This document shows positions 17,813-32,028 of a stretch of DNA of 32,028 nt, piece by piece; position 1 is the stretch's first letter; each line of letters starts with the position of its first letter. Made by a program: the position numbers and the translations under genes. The notes under the pieces are model-generated. The model searched no databases. It was given only the letters and a program-made list of their open reading frames with translations, and was not told where the DNA came from. The stretch spans positions 1 through 32,028 of the IMG/VR virus record IMGVR_UViG_3300029262_000130; one strand, given 5' to 3'. The stretch comes from a virus.

Positions 17813-18064
17813 ATGAAAAAGGTATTACTAGTACTAGTAATGCCCCTACTTCTGGTGGGGTGCATCAAGAGTGTGGCGCTAAGTGATGGCTACCAAATAG
17901 GTGATGGAGTTTCTACAGCATCGGAGAAAGCAGAACAATACTGTAGCACTACTAGTCCAATTACTAAGGCATTACTAGTCGCTTCTATGAGGGTATTCGT
18001 ACCTAACTGGAAGCCTGTGTGCACTATAAAGGATGGAATTGATGCAGTATTACAAGAGCCGTAG
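17813..18064 (+). CDS. Small lipoprotein
   Basis: An 83-residue protein whose N-terminus is a lipoprotein signal: MKK followed by a hydrophobic stretch and the lipobox LVGC, so lipidation at Cys17 and anchoring to a membrane are likely. The mature part has two more cysteines (in YCSTTS and KPVCTI), compatible with a disulfide in the periplasm. AGGAGG stands upstream of the ATG. It could be an outer-membrane spanin subunit or a superinfection-exclusion lipoprotein, but it is not proline-rich as typical o-spanins are and there is no obvious i-spanin partner next to it. It overlaps the downstream gene by 23 bases. I do not recognise the family. Confidence 0.65.
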   Translation: MKKVLLVLVMPLLLVGCIKSVALSDGYQIGDGVSTASEKAEQYCSTTSPITKALLVASMRVFVPNWKPVCTIKDGIDAVLQEP

Positions 18065-18835: not shown

Positions 18836-18992
18836 GGTATGGGTTCAAAATAATATTATATATGGTATGTGCTTGCGGGGCTTGGGTGGTGTGTGTGTAT
18901 AAGGAGTCTCTAAAGTCTTTTTGTATTCTATTGTGTGTGCTCATGTGAGTATGCAATTGCTTGACCTAACTAACTTACTAAAGGTAACTACT

Positions 18993-21245
18993 ATGTCTAT
19001 TAACTCTATGATTAACAATGCACTAACTAACGCAACTAATGCAACTAACGCAACTATAACTACTTCAAAGGTATCGCCAGCTATGAACTCACTCCAAACA
19101 CTGATCGCCAACACACAAGCTAAAGCAAAGGCTACTCAAGCTAACGTAGTAGTACAAAGTGTTGAGAACAAGACTAAGAAGATCCCGCAAAGCGTGAAGG
19201 TTGCAAGGATAACTCAGCAGCTATATCGTAAGTCTCAGCACAAGCTTACTGAAATACAAGCTCTTATCTTAGCAACATCATTCATAGTTAATGAGGCAAC
19301 TCTTACTAAGTCTCGTCCACAAGTATGGATTCGTAACATGAACAATAGCATCAATGGTGCAATACTTACAGCAACAAAGAAAACTGCGCTAGGTGATGAA
19401 GTAACAACAGTTGAAGAAATGGAGATTGATAACTGGTTTGAGTGCTTAGTCACAACAGACTTAATAACACGAGAAGGACTTGAAGGTAAGTATCTTGCAA
19501 TGCTTAACGAAGATCAGCCAAAAGCATATGCAAGACCTGCAACAGAAGGAATCAACAAGCAGAATAGACGTAAGCGTGTTGTTAAGAATGGTGCTAAGCT
19601 GAGTAAGCTATCACAACGTACACTTAACTTCCTACAGCTTAATGAGCGCACTATCTGCATACCAACGCTAGAGCTTGCCAAGTTAGTATTCGCTGGCCAG
19701 AAGGTAGTGGTTGAGCAGTTCGTAATCAGTGGTGCCCAGCATCAGGTAGATCTAGGTAACGTGCCTAGTGTTAACGAGTACTTCTTCGATACCCGCTTCC
19801 GTATATACCAAGGTGATGCTCATGGTGGTAACGTGCAGGCTTCAGACATGGCTAGAGCAATGGTTAGTCCATATGGTGTAACGCTTGACTATGATACAGA
19901 CAAGGCATTGTTAGTACTGATAGCTGAAGCAAAGGATATGATTAAGGGCTGTACAGTAGACCAAGCATTAGCTCAGTTGGCTAAGCTAGGGGATGTTGAA
20001 TTTATCAAGGCGTGCATAGATGATAATACTAAAGAGTCTAAGAAGATTAAGAAGCCTTGGGCATTTCATAAGATCGCTAACTTAATCAATCGCCTACGTA
20101 ATGGTGAGCAGCCTTACTTGGATATTACAGTAGGCTTGGATGCCAAGTGCTCAGGACCACAGCTAGGTGGCTTGATGGTTGGTGATGAAGATATAATAGC
20201 ATCTTGTGGATTTAGTGAATCAGTAGTTGATGATGCTTATATGGCATGTGTTGCGAACCTAAAAGCAGCTGGGTTTACATTTCCTGCATCTGGAGCAAGA
20301 GAGCTTATTAAGACTCCATACATGGGTATATTCTATGGTCAAAGCTGGATGGCATTTGCAGACGAGAGTTTATACATAGCTGATCCAAGTAAGAAGGATA
20401 TGGATATAGCGCTACTTCCAGTCATACTTAGCTATGATAACAACCTAGAAGAGGCTGCTAAGGTGTTCCACAAGGTAGTTGAGGGTAGCTTTGGTAGTAA
20501 GATGATTGCACTAAGAAATGCTATCAACGGACCTACATGTGCTCATTGGCACTTCGAACAGCAAGGTGAAGATTATGTACGTGTTATGGATACTGATAAG
20601 CCTACTTCATACTTCCTACCTGATGGACAATTAGTAGCTACATCTTATAAGGTAAAGAATACAATCCTTGGTACTGCGACTCTGGCACAAGCCGATGCAC
20701 CTAATGTATCACTAACAGTAAGAGGTGAGACATTCAAGTTTGATAAGCTAACATTCAAGACAGATGAAGAAGCTTTGTATGATTACTCACGTACAGGCTT
20801 TGTTAACTTCATCCAGAGCATGGATGGCTTGCTAGCTAGGCTGATTATCACTAAGCTAGAACGTCTTGGCGCTACCCACTGTGATTCTGTACATGACTGT
20901 TTCAGAGTATCAGTGCCTGACATGATCAGTGGTAAGCTACACAATGCTATCAAGTTCGCTTATAATAGCTTGTTTGGTTCACAATACAATAACACAACAG
21001 CTGAGCTACCAATGGGCAGTGATGCCTTAGTAATGTACTTTGAAGGCGTTAATAGAGCTACTAAGAAAGAGATGAAGCGCAGTGACAAGCTGATTAATAA
21101 GAAGCATGGACAGTTTGAGTATGATGTTATGTCTAAGTCATTCCTACGTAACCTATACTTAGAAGGTGTTGATATGCCTACACTGATTGGTGATATACAG
21201 AATGAGTTGGAAGGAACAGGCAACACTTACTTCTTCGCTAAGTAA
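18993..21245 (+). CDS. Single-subunit DNA-dependent RNA polymerase (T7-like)
   Basis: The frame is open from 18921, but AAAGG at 18980-18984 points to the ATG at 18993, giving 750 residues, shorter than T7 RNA polymerase (883). All catalytic motifs are visible: motif A L-D-A-K-C-S-G (Asp383, T7 Asp537); motif B R436-x3-K440-x7-Y448-G, equal in spacing to T7 Arg627, Lys631, Tyr639; and motif C S-V-H-D-C-F with His634 and Asp635 (T7 His811, Asp812). The segment between motifs A and B is 65 residues against 102 in T7, so the fingers are reduced. The C-terminus is T-Y-F-F-A-K rather than F-A-F-A. The enzyme transcribes the phage genome from its own promoters; candidates lie directly downstream. 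An N-terminal N-A-T-N-A-T-N-A-T stretch is low-complexity. Such enzymes are best known in podoviruses, so presence in a contractile-tailed phage is notable. Confidence 0.93.
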   Translation: MSINSMINNALTNATNATNATITTSKVSPAMNSLQTLIANTQAKAKATQANVVVQSVENKTKKIPQSVKVARITQQLYRKSQHKLTEIQALILATSFIVNEATLTKSRPQVWIRNMNNSINGAILTATKKTALGDEVTTVEEMEIDNWFECLVTTDLITREGLEGKYLAMLNEDQPKAYARPATEGINKQNRRKRVVKNGAKLSKLSQRTLNFLQLNERTICIPTLELAKLVFAGQKVVVEQFVISGAQHQVDLGNVPSVNEYFFDTRFRIYQGDAHGGNVQASDMARAMVSPYGVTLDYDTDKALLVLIAEAKDMIKGCTVDQALAQLAKLGDVEFIKACIDDNTKESKKIKKPWAFHKIANLINRLRNGEQPYLDITVGLDAKCSGPQLGGLMVGDEDIIASCGFSESVVDDAYMACVANLKAAGFTFPASGARELIKTPYMGIFYGQSWMAFADESLYIADPSKKDMDIALLPVILSYDNNLEEAAKVFHKVVEGSFGSKMIALRNAINGPTCAHWHFEQQGEDYVRVMDTDKPTSYFLPDGQLVATSYKVKNTILGTATLAQADAPNVSLTVRGETFKFDKLTFKTDEEALYDYSRTGFVNFIQSMDGLLARLIITKLERLGATHCDSVHDCFRVSVPDMISGKLHNAIKFAYNSLFGSQYNNTTAELPMGSDALVMYFEGVNRATKKEMKRSDKLINKKHGQFEYDVMSKSFLRNLYLEGVDMPTLIGDIQNELEGTGNTYFFAK

Positions 21246-21470
21246 TACTAAATAGCCTGACACCTAGCCTTCCTAGAGGGCTAGTTAGCTAGTGGTGCAT
21301 GCTTAGTAGCCCTACAATATTGCGGAAGATAAAGACCTAAGGAGTACCATAAGTCTGGGGCGTCCCGGCATCTATGTAGACTTTACAGTCTTCTAGTTCG
21401 CTGCGCTCACCCAGTCAAAAGACCTAAAACAAAGGTCAAGGTCAAGACAAAGTTCAAGAGACTAAGTTCA

Positions 21471-21482
21471 CAGTACTATAGG
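21471..21482 (+). promoter_or_regulatory. Candidate phage RNA polymerase promoter P1 (short form)
   Basis: CAGTACTATAGG, followed by TAGTC. It shares ACTATAGG with the T7 promoter core but lacks the TATGG upstream element of P2, P4, P6 and P7. It lies inside the loop of a 9-bp inverted repeat (GTCAAGACA at 21441, TGTCTTGAC at 21490). Confidence 0.4.
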
Positions 21483-21521
21483 TAGTCCCTGTCTTGACTG
21501 ACATTACTGACCTAAGTACTA

Positions 21522-21536
21522 TTATGGTTCTATAGG
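21522..21536 (+). promoter_or_regulatory. Candidate phage RNA polymerase promoter P2
   Basis: TTATGGTTCTATAGG, one of four long-form copies in this region. T7-type promoters end in CTATAGG with the start at the first G of the GG. P2 is the first half of the duplicated 37-bp block and reads rightwards toward the early genes. Confidence 0.65.
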
Positions 21537-21541
21537 TGCTC

Positions 21542-21552
21542 CATACTATAGG
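21542..21552 (+). promoter_or_regulatory. Candidate phage RNA polymerase promoter P3 (short form)
   Basis: CATACTATAGG, 16 bp downstream of P2 within the same repeated block. It may be a second start or simply a conserved initial-transcript element. Confidence 0.4.
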
Positions 21553-21595
21553 CTAGTAATAAGGGCGTCACAGTCTGCTGAAGTACCCACCTGCA

Positions 21596-21620
21596 TCATT
21601 TGTGTGTAGGTAGCAAATGA
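21596..21620 (+). other. Hairpin after P2/P3 block
   Basis: TCATTTG (21596-21602) pairs with CAAATGA (21614-21620) over an 11-base loop. A similarly placed stem, CTATGT/ACATAG, lies after the second block at 21737-21756. Both follow AAGTACCC. Neither has a U-run. Confidence 0.5.
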
Positions 21621-21668
21621 CTAGTGCCATACCAATCTTACTAGCTAGATAGATCTTGGTAGTAACTA

Positions 21669-21683
21669 TTATGGTTCTATAGG
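21669..21683 (+). promoter_or_regulatory. Candidate phage RNA polymerase promoter P4
   Basis: TTATGGTTCTATAGG, identical to P2 and part of the second copy of the 37-bp block. Confidence 0.65.
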
Positions 21684-21688
21684 TGCTC

Positions 21689-21699
21689 CATACTATAGG
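21689..21699 (+). promoter_or_regulatory. Candidate phage RNA polymerase promoter P5 (short form)
   Basis: CATACTATAGG, identical to P3, in the second copy of the block. Confidence 0.4.
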
Positions 21700-21736
21700 C
21701 TTGCTCAATCGGCGCTCCTGCCTGCTTAAGTACCCG

Positions 21737-21756
21737 CTATGTTCTTTGTGACATAG
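21737..21756 (+). other. Hairpin after P4/P5 block
   Basis: CTATGT (21737-21742) and ACATAG (21751-21756) form a 6-bp stem with an 8-base loop. The position relative to the promoter block matches that of the hairpin at 21596-21620, although the stem sequences differ. Confidence 0.45.
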
Positions 21757-21836
21757 ATAGCAGTAGATAGTGTATTAGCCGCTCTTGGTAAGTCTTGATA
21801 GATCTTGGTAGCAACTAGGTAGATCTTGGTAGTAGC

Positions 21837-21872
21837 TGGCTAAGTGATTGGCTAAGTAATTGGCTAAGTGAT
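21837..21872 (+). repeat. Three tandem 12-bp repeats (TGGCTAAGTGAT)
   Basis: Copies lie at 21837-21848, 21849-21860 (TGGCTAAGTAAT, one change) and 21861-21872. The array abuts a larger repeat, so the whole 21837-21960 stretch is iterated. Confidence 0.9.
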
Positions 21873-21874
21873 AG

Positions 21875-21960
21875 CTAGTTGAGTAAGAAGCTGGTTAGTT
21901 GATGGCTAGTTGATTACTAGTTGAGTAAGAAGCTGGTTAGTTGATGGCTAGTTGAGTAAG
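21875..21960 (+). repeat. Tandem 42-bp period repeat
   Basis: A 39-bp sequence starting CTAGTTGAGTAAGAAGCTGG occurs at 21875-21913 and again, identical, at 21917-21955, followed by a partial third copy at 21948-21960. The units contain GGTTAGTTGATGGCTAG. There are no unique spacers between copies, so it is not a CRISPR array. Iterated DNA beside promoters is compatible with an origin. Confidence 0.9.
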
Positions 21961-21990
21961 GTCTTGGTAGTTGTGATGGCGACTTGTTAG

Positions 21991-22047
21991 GGTTGGTAGA
22001 GCTTGGTGGGTTCAAAGCACCCAAGCCCTAAACAGCTCTCCCAAGCC
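21991..22047 (+). other. Predicted branched stem-loop, possible structured RNA
   Basis: GGTTGG and AGAGCT on the left pair with AGCTCT and CCAAGCC on the right (right arm 22034-22047), with one unpaired base and a bulge. Inside is a second stem, TGGGT (22007-22011) with ACCCA (22019-22023). About 13 outer and five inner pairs in 57 bases is more than expected by chance. No U-run follows, so a terminator is unlikely. Confidence 0.5.
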
Positions 22048-22242
22048 TAATCACCTATTAATTAGTCCTATCCAACTATCAGCCTAGTACTAATTAAGCT
22101 TGTTAGTCCCTAGTTAGTATCCAGTGATAAGACCTATCTAGTTACTGATAAGATCTTACTAGGTAATACTGGGGCTGTTTAGGTCCTACTTAGTGTCTAG
22201 AAAGATGGTCTAGTTAGGGTCTATAAGCCCAGCCTGTCCTCT

Positions 22243-22257
22243 TTATGGTTTTATAGG
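22243..22257 (+). promoter_or_regulatory. Candidate phage RNA polymerase promoter P6
   Basis: TTATGGTTTTATAGG, one base different from P2 (C to T in the core), followed by TAGTC as in P1. Confidence 0.6.
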
Positions 22258-22557
22258 TAGTCTAGTTAGTGGTGTATTGAGCAAGCCTTGATGTATAGGG
22301 TTTGATAGATACAGTACTTAACAACTAGTTAGTACTCTATATACCAAGCCAGATGTTATAGTTAGAATGTATAGCTATAACCAGATGTACCCACCAGTGT
22401 TCCAACACCACATGATGCTGGCATGTTCAAGTGGCTAAGGCTAATAACCTGTCCGATCCCCTATGTAAAGGGCGTCACATCAGGGAGTGGTACGTAAACC
22501 CACCCCGCTACGTGTACAAATATGTCCTAGCACTCTAGGATCACTCAGTAAGAATAT

Positions 22558-22572
22558 TTATGGTTCTATAGG
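22558..22572 (+). promoter_or_regulatory. Candidate phage RNA polymerase promoter P7 for first early gene
   Basis: TTATGGTTCTATAGG, preceded by an AT stretch (GAATA) and a hairpin at 22525-22540. It would start a transcript with an untranslated leader of about 79 bases, ending at the ATG at 22650. This is the most plausible single promoter for the early genes. Confidence 0.65.
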
Positions 22573-22649
22573 ATACCCATTCAAAACCTATAACTTAACT
22601 ACTATTGGCGACTTTGCCTAACTATTATTAATTCTAAAGGAATACTATT

Positions 22650-24119: not shown

Positions 24120-24305
24120 ATGAGAATATTACCTATACAAAAGCTAGAAATTATCAATAAAATTCAGAAAGCTATGCAAAGCCCTACCAACTCAGCAAGT
24201 GGTGGTTTCAGTACAAAAGATAACTGGAGAGCTAGGAGCAATGCCAAGCCAGTAGTAAGGACTCGTAGCAAGCATCCAGAAGGAGCATATACTTATTATG
24301 TATAA
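24120..24305 (+). CDS. Unknown small basic protein (61 aa)
   Basis: The start ATG follows GGAGTAAGAGCC and gives a short basic protein (many Arg and Lys in the second half: RARSNAKPVVRTRSKHP). Its stop overlaps the start of the following gene. I recognise no family. The basic tail could bind nucleic acid, but that is speculation. Confidence 0.55.
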   Translation: MRILPIQKLEIINKIQKAMQSPTNSASGGFSTKDNWRARSNAKPVVRTRSKHPEGAYTYYV

Positions 24306-24492
24306 TTTTATTAAGTACACAGTACTTGGGTTTGCTTTAGGGTACTTCTATATATATTATGGGGCGGTATCAGCTGGCGTATTTTTAGTCACATTGCAGG
24401 TATTATCGAATATGGAGGATGCCCACACAGCTAATAGCATAAATCATAAGGAGCTACTAAATGCTATCAAAAATTCTAAATCTGGAGAGTAG
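24298..24492 (+). CDS. Small membrane protein (64 aa)
   Basis: AGAAGGAG lies upstream of the ATG, which overlaps the previous stop by eight bases. The first 38 residues form one or two hydrophobic stretches (YTVLGFALGYFYIYYGAVSAG, then VFLVTLQVL); the rest is hydrophilic and contains ANSINHKELLNAIKN. No lipobox and no cleavage site are visible. It could be an inner-membrane early protein of unknown role. It is distant from the peptidoglycan hydrolases, so a holin role has no support from position. Confidence 0.55.
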   Translation: MYNFIKYTVLGFALGYFYIYYGAVSAGVFLVTLQVLSNMEDAHTANSINHKELLNAIKNSKSGE

Positions 24493-27740: not shown

Positions 27741-27770
27741 AGGGACGCTAGATTGACTAGCGTCCCTTTT
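27741..27770 (+). terminator. Strong intrinsic terminator
   Basis: AGGGACGCTAG (27741-27751) and CTAGCGTCCCT (27757-27767) pair perfectly over an ATTGA loop, followed by TTTTAATT. It ends the transcript of the 27367 gene. Only this hairpin and the one at 2815 have the full shape of intrinsic terminators in this window. Confidence 0.92.
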
Positions 27771-27946: not shown

Positions 27947-29089
27947 ATGTTTACTCAAAGATATGCTATGAATGGAGAGCAAATAGATTCTCTAATATTA
28001 CCTGAAGTACTAGAGTCCTTAGTATCATCAGAAAGAACAATAGATATGTACTACGCCCACGAGGATAACTTCAAAGGCTTATGTGGAGTTGATATGGATA
28101 CTGGACTAGTAGAGATACAGCTCAGTAAAGATAAGAAAGCTACTATGAAGATTGGTAAGTACCTTCGTAAGATTGGTAGGTCAGAAGATGTGTGTAGGGA
28201 GTACAGTGCTGAGCTGAATGCTGCTATAGAGATCATAAAAGGTACTGAGTTAAGCTTTACCACATGTGGAAGTGAGGCTGTTAAGGTGTATGAGAATGGA
28301 CCTGACTCTTGTATGTCAAAATGTAAAGGTGTAGCTATCTATGATGGAAATGATACTGCTGTAGCCTACGTAAAACTTAATGACAGAATAATTGCTAGAT
28401 CTGTAGTAGTTATTAATAAAGACCTTGGACTGAGGTACATAGAAATATATGGAAACTCAGAAATGATGCAACCACTACTAGATAGAGCTGGTTTTGTAAA
28501 GGGAGATTTAGATGGTTGTACCTTTCCAAAGCTAGAGGATGATAGGGGTATATTGTTTCCTTACTTTGACTGTGGTACTTATGTTGATATATATGATTAT
28601 TATCTAAAGGCTGATTCGAGTGGAGAGCTTGACTCGCAAATTACTGGTGGCTACATAGAATCCGCAATATGTGATAGGTGTGGTGATAATATAGTCAATG
28701 AATATGAGGCAAGGTACTGTGAGCACACTAACATGAATCTGTGTGAACATTGTTACGACGAAGATCATGTGTGCATAGATGGAGAATATTACCATAAAGA
28801 AAGTGATGACATTTGCCCAGTTGATGGTGAGTACATGTTTAAGTCTGATTGTATCTACATAGAAACTAGAGAGGAATGGATGCATAATGATGATGTAGCA
28901 TATAGCGAGTACACGCAAGAGTATATTGCTTGTGAAGATTCAGTTGATGCACTAACAAGGGTACATGATGCCGAAGGAGAGCCTTGCCATAGAGATGATT
29001 GCACTAAGTATGAAGGGGTATGGGTACATGATGATATACTATATGAGTACGAAGAAAGCTTAGACCAACAATCTGAGTTGTCTGAATAG
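27947..29089 (+). CDS. Cysteine-rich protein, probable zinc-binding
   Basis: This 380-residue protein has a mixed N-terminal half and a cysteine-rich C-terminal part that begins with C-D-R-C-G-D at residues 242-246 and continues Y-C-E-H, L-C-E-H-C-Y, H-V-C, I-C-P-V-D and S-D-C. At least seven Cys and two His within 70 residues form the type of pattern seen in RING-like or treble-clef zinc domains. The middle contains S-C-M-S-K-C-K-G and a region with IYGNSEMMQPLLDRAGF. Related phage proteins exist (a group with P-x-S-C-M), but I cannot give a tested function. It is acidic overall at the end. The start follows AAGGA. Confidence 0.7.
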   Translation: MFTQRYAMNGEQIDSLILPEVLESLVSSERTIDMYYAHEDNFKGLCGVDMDTGLVEIQLSKDKKATMKIGKYLRKIGRSEDVCREYSAELNAAIEIIKGTELSFTTCGSEAVKVYENGPDSCMSKCKGVAIYDGNDTAVAYVKLNDRIIARSVVVINKDLGLRYIEIYGNSEMMQPLLDRAGFVKGDLDGCTFPKLEDDRGILFPYFDCGTYVDIYDYYLKADSSGELDSQITGGYIESAICDRCGDNIVNEYEARYCEHTNMNLCEHCYDEDHVCIDGEYYHKESDDICPVDGEYMFKSDCIYIETREEWMHNDDVAYSEYTQEYIACEDSVDALTRVHDAEGEPCHRDDCTKYEGVWVHDDILYEYEESLDQQSELSE

Positions 29090-29098
29090 GAGAACTAA

Positions 29099-29542
29099 AT
29101 GTTTTTAGAACTAGTAATAGCAGCCAATATTGGCTACGGACAACCAATAGATAGTGTACAAGCTAGCTGTATTGCTAGTGCTATCTACCATGAAGCTAGA
29201 GATCAGCCACTACTAGGGCAGGCTGCTGTAGCGCAAGTTATATTAAATAGGATGGAGCCGAGGGGCAGGACTGCTTGTGGAGTTGTAAAGCAATATAAAC
29301 AGTTTAGTTTTACACTGTCCCCTTACTCTGAGAGGCTGGCATATTTTAAAGCAGCTAGCAGTATTGACAACAAAGCTAAGCATGTAGCAGTTCAGATTGC
29401 TTTGCAGAGCCTAACCGGTACTTTCAATGGTGTTGTTAATGGTGCCATGCACTACTATAACCCAGCTAAGGCTAACCCAGCTTGGAAGAGTGATTTCAAC
29501 AAACAACTAACTATAGGGGATCACCTATATGTTTATAAATAA
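29099..29542 (+). CDS. Cell-wall hydrolase (SleB-like), endolysin candidate
   Basis: A 147-residue enzyme of the SleB/hydrolase_2 type. The signature A-I-Y-H-E-A-R-D-Q-P-L-L-G-Q-A-A-V-A-Q-V-I-L-N-R lies at residues 28-51; Glu32 in H-E-A-R is the expected catalytic residue. The C-terminal NGAMHYYNPAKANPAW is also typical. Members cleave the glycan strand (lytic transglycosylase-like activity). There is no signal peptide, so release would need a holin. AGGAGA precedes the ATG. It is followed after 10 bases by a second peptidoglycan hydrolase candidate and then a tiny membrane protein, forming a possible lysis cassette that lies in the early/middle part and not with the tail genes. Confidence 0.85.
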   Translation: MFLELVIAANIGYGQPIDSVQASCIASAIYHEARDQPLLGQAAVAQVILNRMEPRGRTACGVVKQYKQFSFTLSPYSERLAYFKAASSIDNKAKHVAVQIALQSLTGTFNGVVNGAMHYYNPAKANPAWKSDFNKQLTIGDHLYVYK

Positions 29543-29552
29543 AGGGTAGGAA

Positions 29553-30017
29553 ATGAGAATGATAGAGCATAAATTTGAACTTGAACAACCTATACTAAAG
29601 CACTTTTGCGTGGAAGAGTTTATAGATAAAAAGACCTTTAGCATACGTGGTGATAACTCTATTCACATAATGGATAGAAGACTAGTGATGTTTGCTGACT
29701 GGCTACGAGAGAAGACTGGCTCTGGTCTTACTATAAATGACTGGCTATGGAATGGCAGTTACAACTGGTCTGGCCTGCGTACTGGGGCCAGTGGATATAG
29801 TAACTACTCAATGCACATGACAGGTAATGCTTTAGATATCAAGTCTAAGACACACACACCAAGAGAGCTACAGAAGCTAGTGGAGGACAACTGGGAAGAG
29901 TGCAAGGAGTATACTGGACTTATTGGTATTCGCATTGAACATACTTCCATGACGCCTACTTGGTTCCATGTAGACTCATTCCAATTTAATGGTGAGATCT
30001 ACGTATTCTATCCATAA
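29553..30017 (+). CDS. M15-like peptidase, possible second endolysin
   Basis: This 154-residue protein shows the zinc-site pattern of M15 (D-Ala-D-Ala carboxypeptidase-like) peptidases: S-M-H-M-T-G-N-A-L-D-I with His88 and Asp95 (H-x6-D), and T-W-F-H-V-D with His139. Upstream G-L-R-x-x-x-S-G-Y-S-N-Y-S completes the family motif. Such enzymes cut peptide cross-links. Start could be ATG 29553 or 29559, both acceptable. A glycan cutter and a peptide cutter next to each other could act together in lysis; alternatively one may remodel the wall at entry or modify it early. No signal peptide is present. Confidence 0.8.
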   Translation: MRMIEHKFELEQPILKHFCVEEFIDKKTFSIRGDNSIHIMDRRLVMFADWLREKTGSGLTINDWLWNGSYNWSGLRTGASGYSNYSMHMTGNALDIKSKTHTPRELQKLVEDNWEECKEYTGLIGIRIEHTSMTPTWFHVDSFQFNGEIYVFYP

Positions 30018-30037
30018 TGACTCTGAAGGAGTATGGT

Positions 30038-30130
30038 ATGTTTGATGAAGCAACAGTAATTTCAGTGTTGTCAATAGTGGTACTTTGTGTGGTGTTGGCA
30101 GCAGGAATTTGGGCAACAAGAAGGAGGTAA
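30038..30130 (+). CDS. Tiny single-span membrane protein, holin candidate
   Basis: AAGGAG (30026-30031) is six bases before ATG 30038, which opens a 30-residue frame ending at TAA 30128-30130: an acidic start (MFDEAT), about 20 uninterrupted hydrophobic residues and a basic end (ATRRR). The charge pattern fits an N-out, C-in membrane span as in pinholins or small holins. It lies directly after two peptidoglycan hydrolase genes and its stop lies between the ribosome binding site and the start of the next gene. It is below usual size cutoffs, so it can be missed. Holin identity is an inference from position and topology. Confidence 0.6.
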   Translation: MFDEATVISVLSIVVLCVVLAAGIWATRRR

Positions 30131-30135
30131 GTACA

Positions 30136-30798
30136 GTGGACAAGAACGATCAGAAAAATGAGCTTATAGATGTAGCAATCAAATGGGTAGAGAAGAAGGA
30201 CATTAACTACCTAGCTAAAGAAGGGCTGCTAGTATACTACACAAGCTTGACAGGAAGGAAGTATGATCTGCGTTGGCACAAGCTATCTCTTACTGAAGCT
30301 GTACGCATTATTACGGCCACTCAAATGTCAGCTGACTCTGCATCAACCCTTAAGCCAGAACACCTAATAATGGCCTGTCAAGAGCTGTCACGGGTATATG
30401 AGCATGGCGTATCCAGCCGATATCCAGTGACAGATGAAGTATTCAATTACTTGGCTAGGGCCGATATAGATTTGAGTGCTCAGGCTATGTCATTGTTAGC
30501 CAGAGAGCTATTGTCTGAGGGGTACATGGCATTTAAAATCAATGACCTGATTGAGATATACCGAGGATTAAATGAGCGCCTAGACCTCGGTACTGGCTCT
30601 GGTGCAATCAATGATTTAATTTGGGCACACTTCCCTCCTCTTGGATATGAGGTACGTATACAGCAGTATCGAGTAGTTATAAATAGTAAGAAGGTAGGTG
30701 TGGTTATGATGCCAGGAAGAAAGCCTAAACATGTTATAGATATCAGTGATGAAATGAAGTTATCTATTATCCGTAAGTTATTTAGTCAATTAAGATAG
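30136..30798 (+). CDS. Unknown protein before primase-helicase (220 aa)
   Basis: The frame extends upstream of the membrane-protein stop, but AAGGAGG at 30121-30127 is correctly spaced for GTG 30136. The product is mainly helical with conserved-looking ACQELSRVYEHGVSSRYP and a C-terminal part of V-R-I-Q-Q-Y-R-V-V-I-N and G-V-V-M-M-P-G-R-K-P-K. I do not recognise a family. The next gene is the primase-helicase, nine bases downstream, so a replication-related role is possible. The extended frame overlapping the membrane-protein gene has no start signal and is not used here. Confidence 0.65.
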   Translation: MDKNDQKNELIDVAIKWVEKKDINYLAKEGLLVYYTSLTGRKYDLRWHKLSLTEAVRIITATQMSADSASTLKPEHLIMACQELSRVYEHGVSSRYPVTDEVFNYLARADIDLSAQAMSLLARELLSEGYMAFKINDLIEIYRGLNERLDLGTGSGAINDLIWAHFPPLGYEVRIQQYRVVINSKKVGVVMMPGRKPKHVIDISDEMKLSIIRKLFSQLR

Positions 30799-30807
30799 GA
30801 GCCTAAA

Positions 30808-32028
30808 ATGGGCATATGTGTTGAAAAGCTACCATGCCCTGACTGTGGTAGTTCAGATAGCTTACAAGTATTTTACGATGATGTTAAAGATACACACTAC
30901 TCATTATGCTTTGGGCAGTGTGGACTAGCACCAAAGGGTAATCCCTATAAAGATGGAGAAGCACCACAAGTACAAAAGAAATCACAGGAGCAGATTGATG
31001 AAGATATCAGGGAAGTACAAGAATGTAAGATATTTAATCCTAAGAAGAAGCCGTGGCGTGGCATGCCAGGAAGTACGTTCAAGTCATGGGGAGTCAGGTT
31101 ACTGCTTTCAGAGTATGATGGGACAACTCCCTACGCTATAGGTTTTCCTATGTCTGATGAAGGTGACTTGGTAGGCTGGAAAGCTGTAGTACTCAAAAGT
31201 AAAAACTTCTTTGCCATAGGTGCAACTAGAGATTGTGATCCATTTGGCTTTGAAAGGGCCATGAAGATAGGTGGCAGGACTCTATACATTACTGAAGGAG
31301 AGTATGATGCAATCGCATTAGACTATTGCTTAGTTAAGAGTCAGGAAGGGACAGAGTATGGCAAGAAGATGTACCCTGTAGTAAGCCTCACATCAGGTGG
31401 TGGAAGCATCACTAAGAACCTGAAGAAAATCAGACGTAGAATAAAGAATAAGTTTAAAGAAGTTGTCTTAGTACTGGATGATGATACAGTTGGAAAGTTA
31501 GCAGAGAAACAAGCAAGGGAAGTAATGCCTGACATTCTTGTAGTCGATAAGCCGAGAGGATGCAAAGATGCTAACGATGCTGTAGAAGCAGGACTTCATA
31601 TGGAGATGGGCCAAGCTGCTAGATGGGAAGCTCATAAGCTACCAATTGAGGGTGTGGTCAGAGTAAGTACAATACTATCTAGAGGGCTACAAAAGCCTGT
31701 GATGGGTTTATCTTATCCTAGTGAGACATTGACAGAAATGACTTATGGACAGCGCTTTGGGGAAGCAGTATGTTTAGGTGCAGGAGTAGGCCTAGGTAAG
31801 ACTGTAACCGCTCATTGGTTTGCTAGTCATAACATGATACACCACAATGAGCCTTGCTTTAAGATATTATTAGAGGAGCAGAACGACTACACACTACGAG
31901 CTATATGTGCTCAGATAGATGGAGTGCCTTACAACAATCCTAAAGCTGAGTATGAGCAAGAACAACTGATAGCAACAGCAGAAGGATTACAAAACAAGCT
32001 ATACCTATGGGAGTCAGACGAAGATCAA
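30808..32028 (+). CDS. Primase-helicase, T7 gp4-like, 3' end cut by window
   Basis: The ATG at 30808 has TAGGAG upstream and opens a frame that runs without stop to the last base (407 codons). It begins with a zinc ribbon, C10-P-D-C13 and C34-x3-C38, followed by a TOPRIM domain: Y-I-T-E-G-E-Y-D-A with Glu163 and L-D-D-D with Asp224-226, then G-C-K-D-A-N-D-A. Walker A reads G-A-G-V-G-L-G-K-T at 324-332, the start of the hexameric helicase domain. T7 gp4 is 566 residues, so about 150-200 residues should be missing. The protein makes primers and unwinds DNA at the fork. Together with the RNA polymerase it gives the phage a T7-style replication and transcription core. Confidence 0.93.
   Translation, partial: MGICVEKLPCPDCGSSDSLQVFYDDVKDTHYSLCFGQCGLAPKGNPYKDGEAPQVQKKSQEQIDEDIREVQECKIFNPKKKPWRGMPGSTFKSWGVRLLLSEYDGTTPYAIGFPMSDEGDLVGWKAVVLKSKNFFAIGATRDCDPFGFERAMKIGGRTLYITEGEYDAIALDYCLVKSQEGTEYGKKMYPVVSLTSGGGSITKNLKKIRRRIKNKFKEVVLVLDDDTVGKLAEKQAREVMPDILVVDKPRGCKDANDAVEAGLHMEMGQAARWEAHKLPIEGVVRVSTILSRGLQKPVMGLSYPSETLTEMTYGQRFGEAVCLGAGVGLGKTVTAHWFASHNMIHHNEPCFKILLEEQNDYTLRAICAQIDGVPYNNPKAEYEQEQLIATAEGLQNKLYLWESDEDQ

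Follow-up and report, generated by a model that had tools for sequence, protein, structure and literature searches.

A SleB-like and M15-like enzyme pair with a 30-residue candidate holin in the lysis slot of a phage distantly related to Chaseviridae

Two predicted peptidoglycan hydrolase genes followed by an open reading frame (ORF) of only 30 codons raise the question of how the enzymes of this phage would reach the cell wall, and whether so small a membrane protein could act as their holin. The window, that is, the entire stretch analyzed, is a virus fragment of 32,028 bases, and the features relevant to this question lie near its right end:

27947-29089, plus strand: 380-aa protein, left flank of the lysis slot (a homologue abuts the slot in two of seven relatives)
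29099-29542, plus strand: SleB-like (Hydrolase_2) peptidoglycan hydrolase, 147 aa (Pfam, PDB 4f55, hydropathy)
29553-30017, plus strand: M15-like zinc peptidase, 154 aa (phrog_894, residue conservation, hydropathy)
30026-30031, plus strand: AAGGAG Shine-Dalgarno sequence of the tiny gene, 6 nt ahead of the ATG at 30038 (sequence)
30038-30130, plus strand: 30-aa single-segment membrane protein, candidate holin (ORF, hydropathy, shuffle test)
30121-30127, plus strand: AAGGAGG Shine-Dalgarno sequence of the next gene (GTG at 30136), contained in the final codons of the tiny ORF
30136-30798, plus strand: phrog_13087 protein, right flank of the lysis slot (matched in all seven relatives and in named Chaseviridae)
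30808-32028, plus strand: primase/helicase, truncated where the window ends (match present in all seven relatives)

An earlier note had described side-by-side SleB-like and M15-like genes followed by a 30-codon membrane ORF with a strong ribosome binding site, and all of these elements were recovered at their positions; the ribosome binding site reads AAGGAG, with a 6-nt spacing. The three genes run head to tail on the plus strand, separated by 10 nt (SleB-M15) and 20 nt (M15-tiny ORF), with a further 5 nt between the tiny ORF and gene 30136. Gene 27947 and those after it, up to the primase, may be transcribed as a single operon. Upstream, between genes 27367 and 27947, an inverted repeat at 27741-27767 appears terminator-like on the minus strand (the scan found 3 such sites against 2.7 expected); visual inspection also shows a short run of T behind it on the plus strand.

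The product of 29099-29542, which we predict with confidence to be a Hydrolase_2 member, scored 63.8 bits against Pfam PF07486 (cut-off, 27 bits) and matched the SleB structure 4f55 in a sequence search of the PDB at E 2e-7. It belongs to the IYHEARD subfamily, and Glu-32 in its IYHEARDQP motif is invariant among nine sequences, the window protein included, and aligns with a Glu of 4f55; we take this residue to be the catalytic Glu. Spore cortex-lytic SleB proper (TIGR02869) was ruled out, with 45.2 bits against an equivalog cut-off of 236.5 bits, and the enzyme is called SleB-like only.

The M15 assignment of the 29553-30017 product is less firm. The protein matched phrog_894, an endolysin family, at E 8e-15, while its scores against the Pfam models Peptidase_M15_3 (17.9 bits; cut-off, 23.2) and VanY (13.6 bits; cut-off, 25) fell short. 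A His-x6-Asp ... His arrangement, presumably the M15 zinc triad, is present, and its residues His-88, Asp-95, and His-139 are invariant in seven sequences including that of the window. The single-sequence structure model was poor (pLDDT 54); it gave no fold match at E 0.001, and none of the 50 fold-search matches listed for it was titled as an M15 enzyme. A profile search of the PDB retrieved no sequence match, and the single-sequence search returned only a chance row at E 0.26. Pattern scans of viral contigs and species genomes confirmed no homologue of the window M15. If the two family assignments are correct, the enzymes would be expected to cut different bonds, one in the glycan and the other in the peptide.

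Within their first 40 residues, the best 19-residue hydropathy reaches 0.92 in the SleB-like enzyme and 0.21 in the M15-like enzyme, which reveals no export segment in either and, specifically, no releasable N-terminal membrane segment of the kind that defines signal-arrest-release (SAR) endolysins. A holin is therefore to be expected. It is conceivable that the SleB-like enzyme exports itself through a short SAR- or signal-like N-terminus and makes a holin unnecessary; mild hydrophobicity (1.57) extends over its residues 1-13, and one of the relatives described below (contig G004, locus L091) encodes a GH24 lysozyme with an N-terminal hydrophobic stretch and has no phrog_2524 match within its 22.6 kb. 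The segment in the window enzyme is too short, however, with no positive charge before it and the low 19-residue value given above, and the M15-like enzyme possesses no such segment at all. We consider self-export highly improbable.

The comparison that bears most on the function of this locus came from seven IMG/VR contigs whose primase is 49-69% identical to that of the window over the matched part; the two largest measure 52.5 and 56.5 kb. All seven carry phrog_13087 and then the primase in the same order as the window, and in all seven the slot before phrog_13087 holds a GH24 lysozyme. Ahead of the lysozyme, six of the seven encode a phrog_2524 protein with hydrophobic segments, in G003 as a match divided between two frames. 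Family models covered L007 and L008, and the other relatives were matched to the L008 proteins by tblastn. On the left side, the position next to the slot, held by gene 27947 in the window, is taken by its homologue in G004 and G007; none was detected in the other five. By eye, GH24 ORFs with an N-terminal hydrophobic stretch occur at 7000-7722 of L008, 1706-2455 of L106, and 5345-5992 of L091; in L008 and L106, this N-terminal extension shares its DNA with the holin-like gene, which is read in a different frame, and the starts are candidates.

At an E-value of 0.05, tblastn detected no match to the window SleB, M15, or tiny protein in the seven relatives, nor any match to the relatives' GH24 lysozyme or phrog_2524 protein in the window. 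This reciprocal absence at a homologous locus indicates that one lysis module was exchanged for another. The function label of phrog_2524 itself is 'unknown', and one relative of the family is annotated as DUF3154, an earlier name of a gene-transfer-agent holin family. In the two largest relative contigs, the holin-like gene is located in the slot. The two kinds of slot share the locus, the right flank (phrog_13087 and primase), and presumably the role; they differ in that their proteins are non-homologous, a single enzyme was found in the relatives, and the relatives' holin-like protein has about 140-150 aa and lies upstream of the enzyme, whereas that of the window has 30 aa and lies downstream. 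In the slot where the likely helper of the lineage sits, the window encodes no membrane protein other than the tiny one, which makes it the best holin candidate. The earlier note's label of a lysis cassette is well supported, chiefly through the relatives' holin-like protein and GH24 lysozyme at this position.

The same comparison bears on the idea that just one of the pair serves as the endolysin and its partner works at a different stage, perhaps excluding superinfecting phages or remodelling the wall. A search confined to lysozymes found a single lysozyme gene in the slot of each of the seven relatives, as this idea would have it. Both window enzymes, however, are located in the swapped slot with short gaps, and the relatives' lysozyme is likewise placed just ahead of phrog_13087 and the primase, so a division of labor of this sort seems to us quite unlikely.

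The window primase/helicase is about 37% identical at best to Chaseviridae proteins among the matches listed. Like Chaseviridae, the window encodes a single-subunit RNA polymerase, phrog_13087, and the primase/helicase in this order; partial views of chaseviruses place the polymerase before the primase in PVN02 and phrog_13087 before the primase in 4HA13 and ST32. Judged from these sequences, the phage, known from a fragment, is a distant relative of Chaseviridae and is not called a member. Both 4HA13 and ST32 carry their endolysin gene ahead of phrog_13087 and the primase, which within this group sets a precedent for placing lysis genes in the early/middle set.

Several further observations concern the polymerase and neighboring regions. 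The window polymerase (18990-21245) is divergent, with no Pfam match and a phrog_414 match at E 4e-23. Contigs G001 (28233-30089), G006 (47897-49741), and G007 carry two single-subunit RNA polymerase genes each, a divergent copy upstream of the primase and a canonical T7-like polymerase far downstream. The canonical enzyme of G001 matched Pfam RNA_pol at E 3e-45, and the canonical type was matched in six of the seven contigs. Immediately downstream of the window polymerase-like gene, about 1.4 kb (21246-22649) are free of ORFs above 46 aa and look, on visual inspection, rich in short repeats. After the tail genes, 17813-18064 encodes an 83-aa predicted lipoprotein (MKKVLLVLVMPLLLVGC, lipobox identified by eye) with a weak match to Rz-like spanins (E 0.019); it could be an outer-membrane lysis partner, and it had no match in the seven relatives.

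Chaseviridae genomes measure 52-56 kb (ICTV profile), so that about 20 kb of the genome is probably unseen beyond the 32-kb record. This leaves room for a second reading, in which both enzymes serve lysis and the tiny protein is real but acts as an antiholin-like timing regulator or an unrelated membrane microprotein, with the true holin elsewhere. Besides the size difference from Chaseviridae and from the two largest relatives, a second, weaker candidate is available at 24298-24492, a 64-aa protein with weak hydrophobic segments; further, in phage swi2, which has two endolysins, the annotated holin showed no lytic activity according to the available part of its description. The holin-like gene of the two largest relative contigs, however, occupies this very slot, and the hydropathy of the 24298-24492 protein is weak (1.57), with no match in the seven relatives in a low-power search. 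A holin outside the slot remains in our estimate a minority prospect, one to be kept in mind.

The tiny protein consists of one hydrophobic segment between MFDEA and WATRRR, and its acidic N-terminus and Arg-Arg-Arg C-terminus fit a holin-like topology, in keeping with its candidate status. Initiation at an alternative in-frame ATG, located at 30017 and overlapping the stop codon of the M15 gene, would yield a 37-aa form. With a 19-residue hydropathy of 2.82, the ORF ranked highest among the ORFs compared, which were those of 20-150 aa lying at least half outside large genes. It occupies the space between the M15 gene and gene 30136. In a post hoc chance test, 20,000 dinucleotide shuffles of this 118-nt gap, which preserve the composition of the stretch, produced an ORF of at least 30 codons in 36% of cases, so length alone is not significant. 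Adding a Shine-Dalgarno match of at least 5 bases reduced the share to 1.4%, and adding a 19-residue hydropathy of at least 2.0 reduced it to 0.015% (0.00015).

Codon usage was less favorable. The ORF scored 0.038, below 99% of 280 in-frame 30-codon windows from genes of the same phage, and among 560 out-of-frame windows 12% attained this value. Two alternative readings of the stretch scored higher (+2 frame, 0.078; one minus-strand frame, 0.253). The low score could reflect the atypical composition of hydrophobic segments. No homologue of the tiny protein was found in the seven relatives or, at E 10, among 50,697 phage records, both searches having low power with so short a query. Weak family matches below cut-off were Pfam FixS (E 0.03) and NCBIfam GVDTG_CTERM (E 0.025), with phrog_22335 at E 0.15 for the 37-aa form, and no homology to a described holin family was accepted from Pfam, NCBIfam, phrog, or the phage records.

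The poor codon score, the lack of a homologue in these searches, and the position of the ribosome site of gene 30136 within the last codons would also be compatible with a stretch that makes no functional protein and serves as a spacer or translational-coupling leader carrying that site. Against this stand the strong ribosome site that the ORF has of its own, the tight spacing, and the top hydropathy among the window's small ORFs. A spacer would not need a 19-residue hydrophobic segment; yet the Arg codons AGA AGG AGG, which furnish the positive C-terminus, are also the next gene's ribosome site. On this evidence we regard a non-coding role as unlikely.

We favor the reading in which the lysis module of a myovirus-like phage replaced the phrog_2524 and GH24 module of the lineage, with the tiny protein acting as the holin, and taken as a whole chain we give it about an even chance or slightly better. 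Both enzymes, produced from a common transcript, would build up in the cytoplasm, as they have no export signals. The 30-residue protein would insert into the inner membrane with its acidic N-terminus outside and the triple Arg inside, accumulate, presumably as oligomers, and open the membrane at a set time. Through this pore, the SleB-like enzyme would then gain access to the glycan strands and cut them, and the M15-like enzyme would cut the stem peptides.

Comparison with described phages disclosed parts of this arrangement. In the chaseviruses 4HA13 and ST32, an endolysin gene follows ssb and, as in the window, precedes phrog_13087 and the primase. The 4HA13 enzyme is annotated as an L-alanyl-D-glutamate peptidase and has only a 22-residue motif in common with the window M15; 4HA13 also has annotated spanins, and the available part of its paper lists a holin. 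Unlike the window, the 4HA13 and ST32 stretches examined have no annotated SleB, and their only strong membrane ORF, of 79 aa, lies in 4HA13 and overlaps an annotated gene in another frame. For Pantoea phage PA1, also a chasevirus, no recognised holin is reported, and a neighboring lysis-related protein, PA1-LRP, is reported to damage cells. PA1 and SXP01 are published examples of phages with a clear endolysin and no recognised holin.

Pectobacterium phage CB7 (Certrevirus), in the part of its description available, combines a SleB-like enzyme with a T5-type L-alanyl-D-glutamate peptidase, a pair comparable to that of the window. Its holin candidate is a class II protein of 65 aa with two membrane segments that overlaps the SleB-like gene, against 30 aa and one segment here; the CB7 SleB has a signal peptide, and a classic lysis cassette is not part of the published description. 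The pairing of two wall enzymes in a Gram-negative phage is likewise recorded, in the accessible portions of their reports, for swi2, vB_Sal-S-S10, SXP01, and BME3. In swi2, the wall-enzyme genes adjoin each other and the holin has two membrane segments; no holin gene was found in SXP01; the BME3 candidates have 61 and 81 aa; and those portions describe no 30-aa partner in any of the four. Both the presence of two wall enzymes in a phage and, from CB7, the SleB plus M15-type combination are in this sense already known. In view of these several published cases, the earlier note is only loosely correct in calling a combination of two endolysins with different bond types uncommon.

Published size classes place class I holins above 95 aa and class II holins at 65-95 aa in the parts of the literature seen, and the tiny protein is far below both. 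It resembles class III holins in having a single predicted membrane segment and a position beside endolysin genes, by hydropathy and location, and departs from them in its shortness and in having no accepted family match. The open-licence literature yielded no holin of about 30 residues next to a SleB/M15 pair. In three of eight named loci (by judgement), a related endolysin gene has as its neighbor an annotated small protein containing a hydrophobic segment, namely in douglas 12A4 (83 aa), EniLVp02 (85 aa), and Nitrincola 1M3-16 (71 aa).

We also surveyed the sequence behind other SleB genes of the IYHEARD subfamily, using the best 80 of 109 IMG/VR loci, which are related to one another. In 78 of the 80, at least 150 nt follow SleB, and the other two were left out; the counts also exclude the named loci L145 and L146. 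The narrow test accepted ORFs of 14-40 aa that start from -5 to +25 nt of the stop and have a 14-residue hydropathy of at least 2.2, a criterion set after the first examples had been seen. Among these best 80 of 109, a tiny hydrophobic ORF of 15-25 codons directly follows SleB in 26 of 78 loci and 20 of 51 distinct contexts, compared with 4 of 356 control gene ends taken from these loci; in three of the four positive controls (L041, L067, and L074), the ORF either overlaps SleB or comes right after it. Of the 20 distinct contexts, 18 have a recognised ribosome-site motif. The printed Fisher value overstates the enrichment because of this choice of the best 80 and the relatedness of the loci. 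A broader test, for a small membrane ORF within 450 nt, gave no enrichment (18 of 68 for SleB vs 47 of 198 for controls).

The pattern was restricted in its distribution. In the CRP-type SleB subfamily (best 80 of 251), the counts were 0 of 77 loci and 0 of 55 distinct contexts, with 1 of 220 controls, and none of ten named isolates had a tiny membrane ORF with a ribosome site directly downstream of SleB; Cr30 has a 29-codon hydrophobic ORF there, inside the next annotated gene and lacking a ribosome site. A scan with the SleB alignment is no replication, as by eye it returned the same contigs. A second SleB plus M15 pair was absent from the best 80 of 109 SleB loci by profile (1437 ORFs, E 0.1), and tblastn with the M15 produced a single weak row, in L065, at E 0.45. 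Searches of the open-licence literature brought up no description of tiny membrane ORFs behind SleB.

Two families dominate the survey, one of 25 aa in 17 loci and the other of 18-22 aa in seven. The pN/pS of the 25-aa family is 0.28 and is no evidence of selection, since a value of 0.33 is obtained in the +1 frame. For the 18-22-aa family, four members yielded a pN/pS of 0.31, computed for a single frame; in six members, the differences by codon position were 49, 10, and 91, a pattern that looks coding in an alignment chosen by hand. The tiny peptides behind SleB have size, place, and hydrophobicity in common, not sequence. Examples include L017, L019, L012, L022, L047, L057, L066, L072, L083, L067, L071, and L074, among others; these are peptides of 15-26 aa on marine virus contigs, most with ribosome sites, encoded directly after SleB or one gene on. 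The tiny gene of the window follows M15, one gene beyond SleB, and one gene likewise intervenes in L041 and L067.

More broadly, the 30-residue protein could be one of a scattered set of minimal single-segment lysis peptides of about 15-30 residues that supply holin function behind export-less SleB-type endolysins in marine and related phages, a generalization that we put forward tentatively and hold to be rather doubtful. The slot comparison offers a clean natural case of lysis-module exchange, in which unrelated enzymes and an unrelated membrane partner occupy the same place. A gene for 30 aa can be missed in routine gene finding, and if the broader proposal is true, such lysis-peptide genes fall under the usual gene-caller cut-offs and annotation reports the holin as missing. 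Should peptides of 15-30 residues suffice, part of the missing-holin gap would be an artefact of annotation, and how small a holin can be would become a directly testable question.
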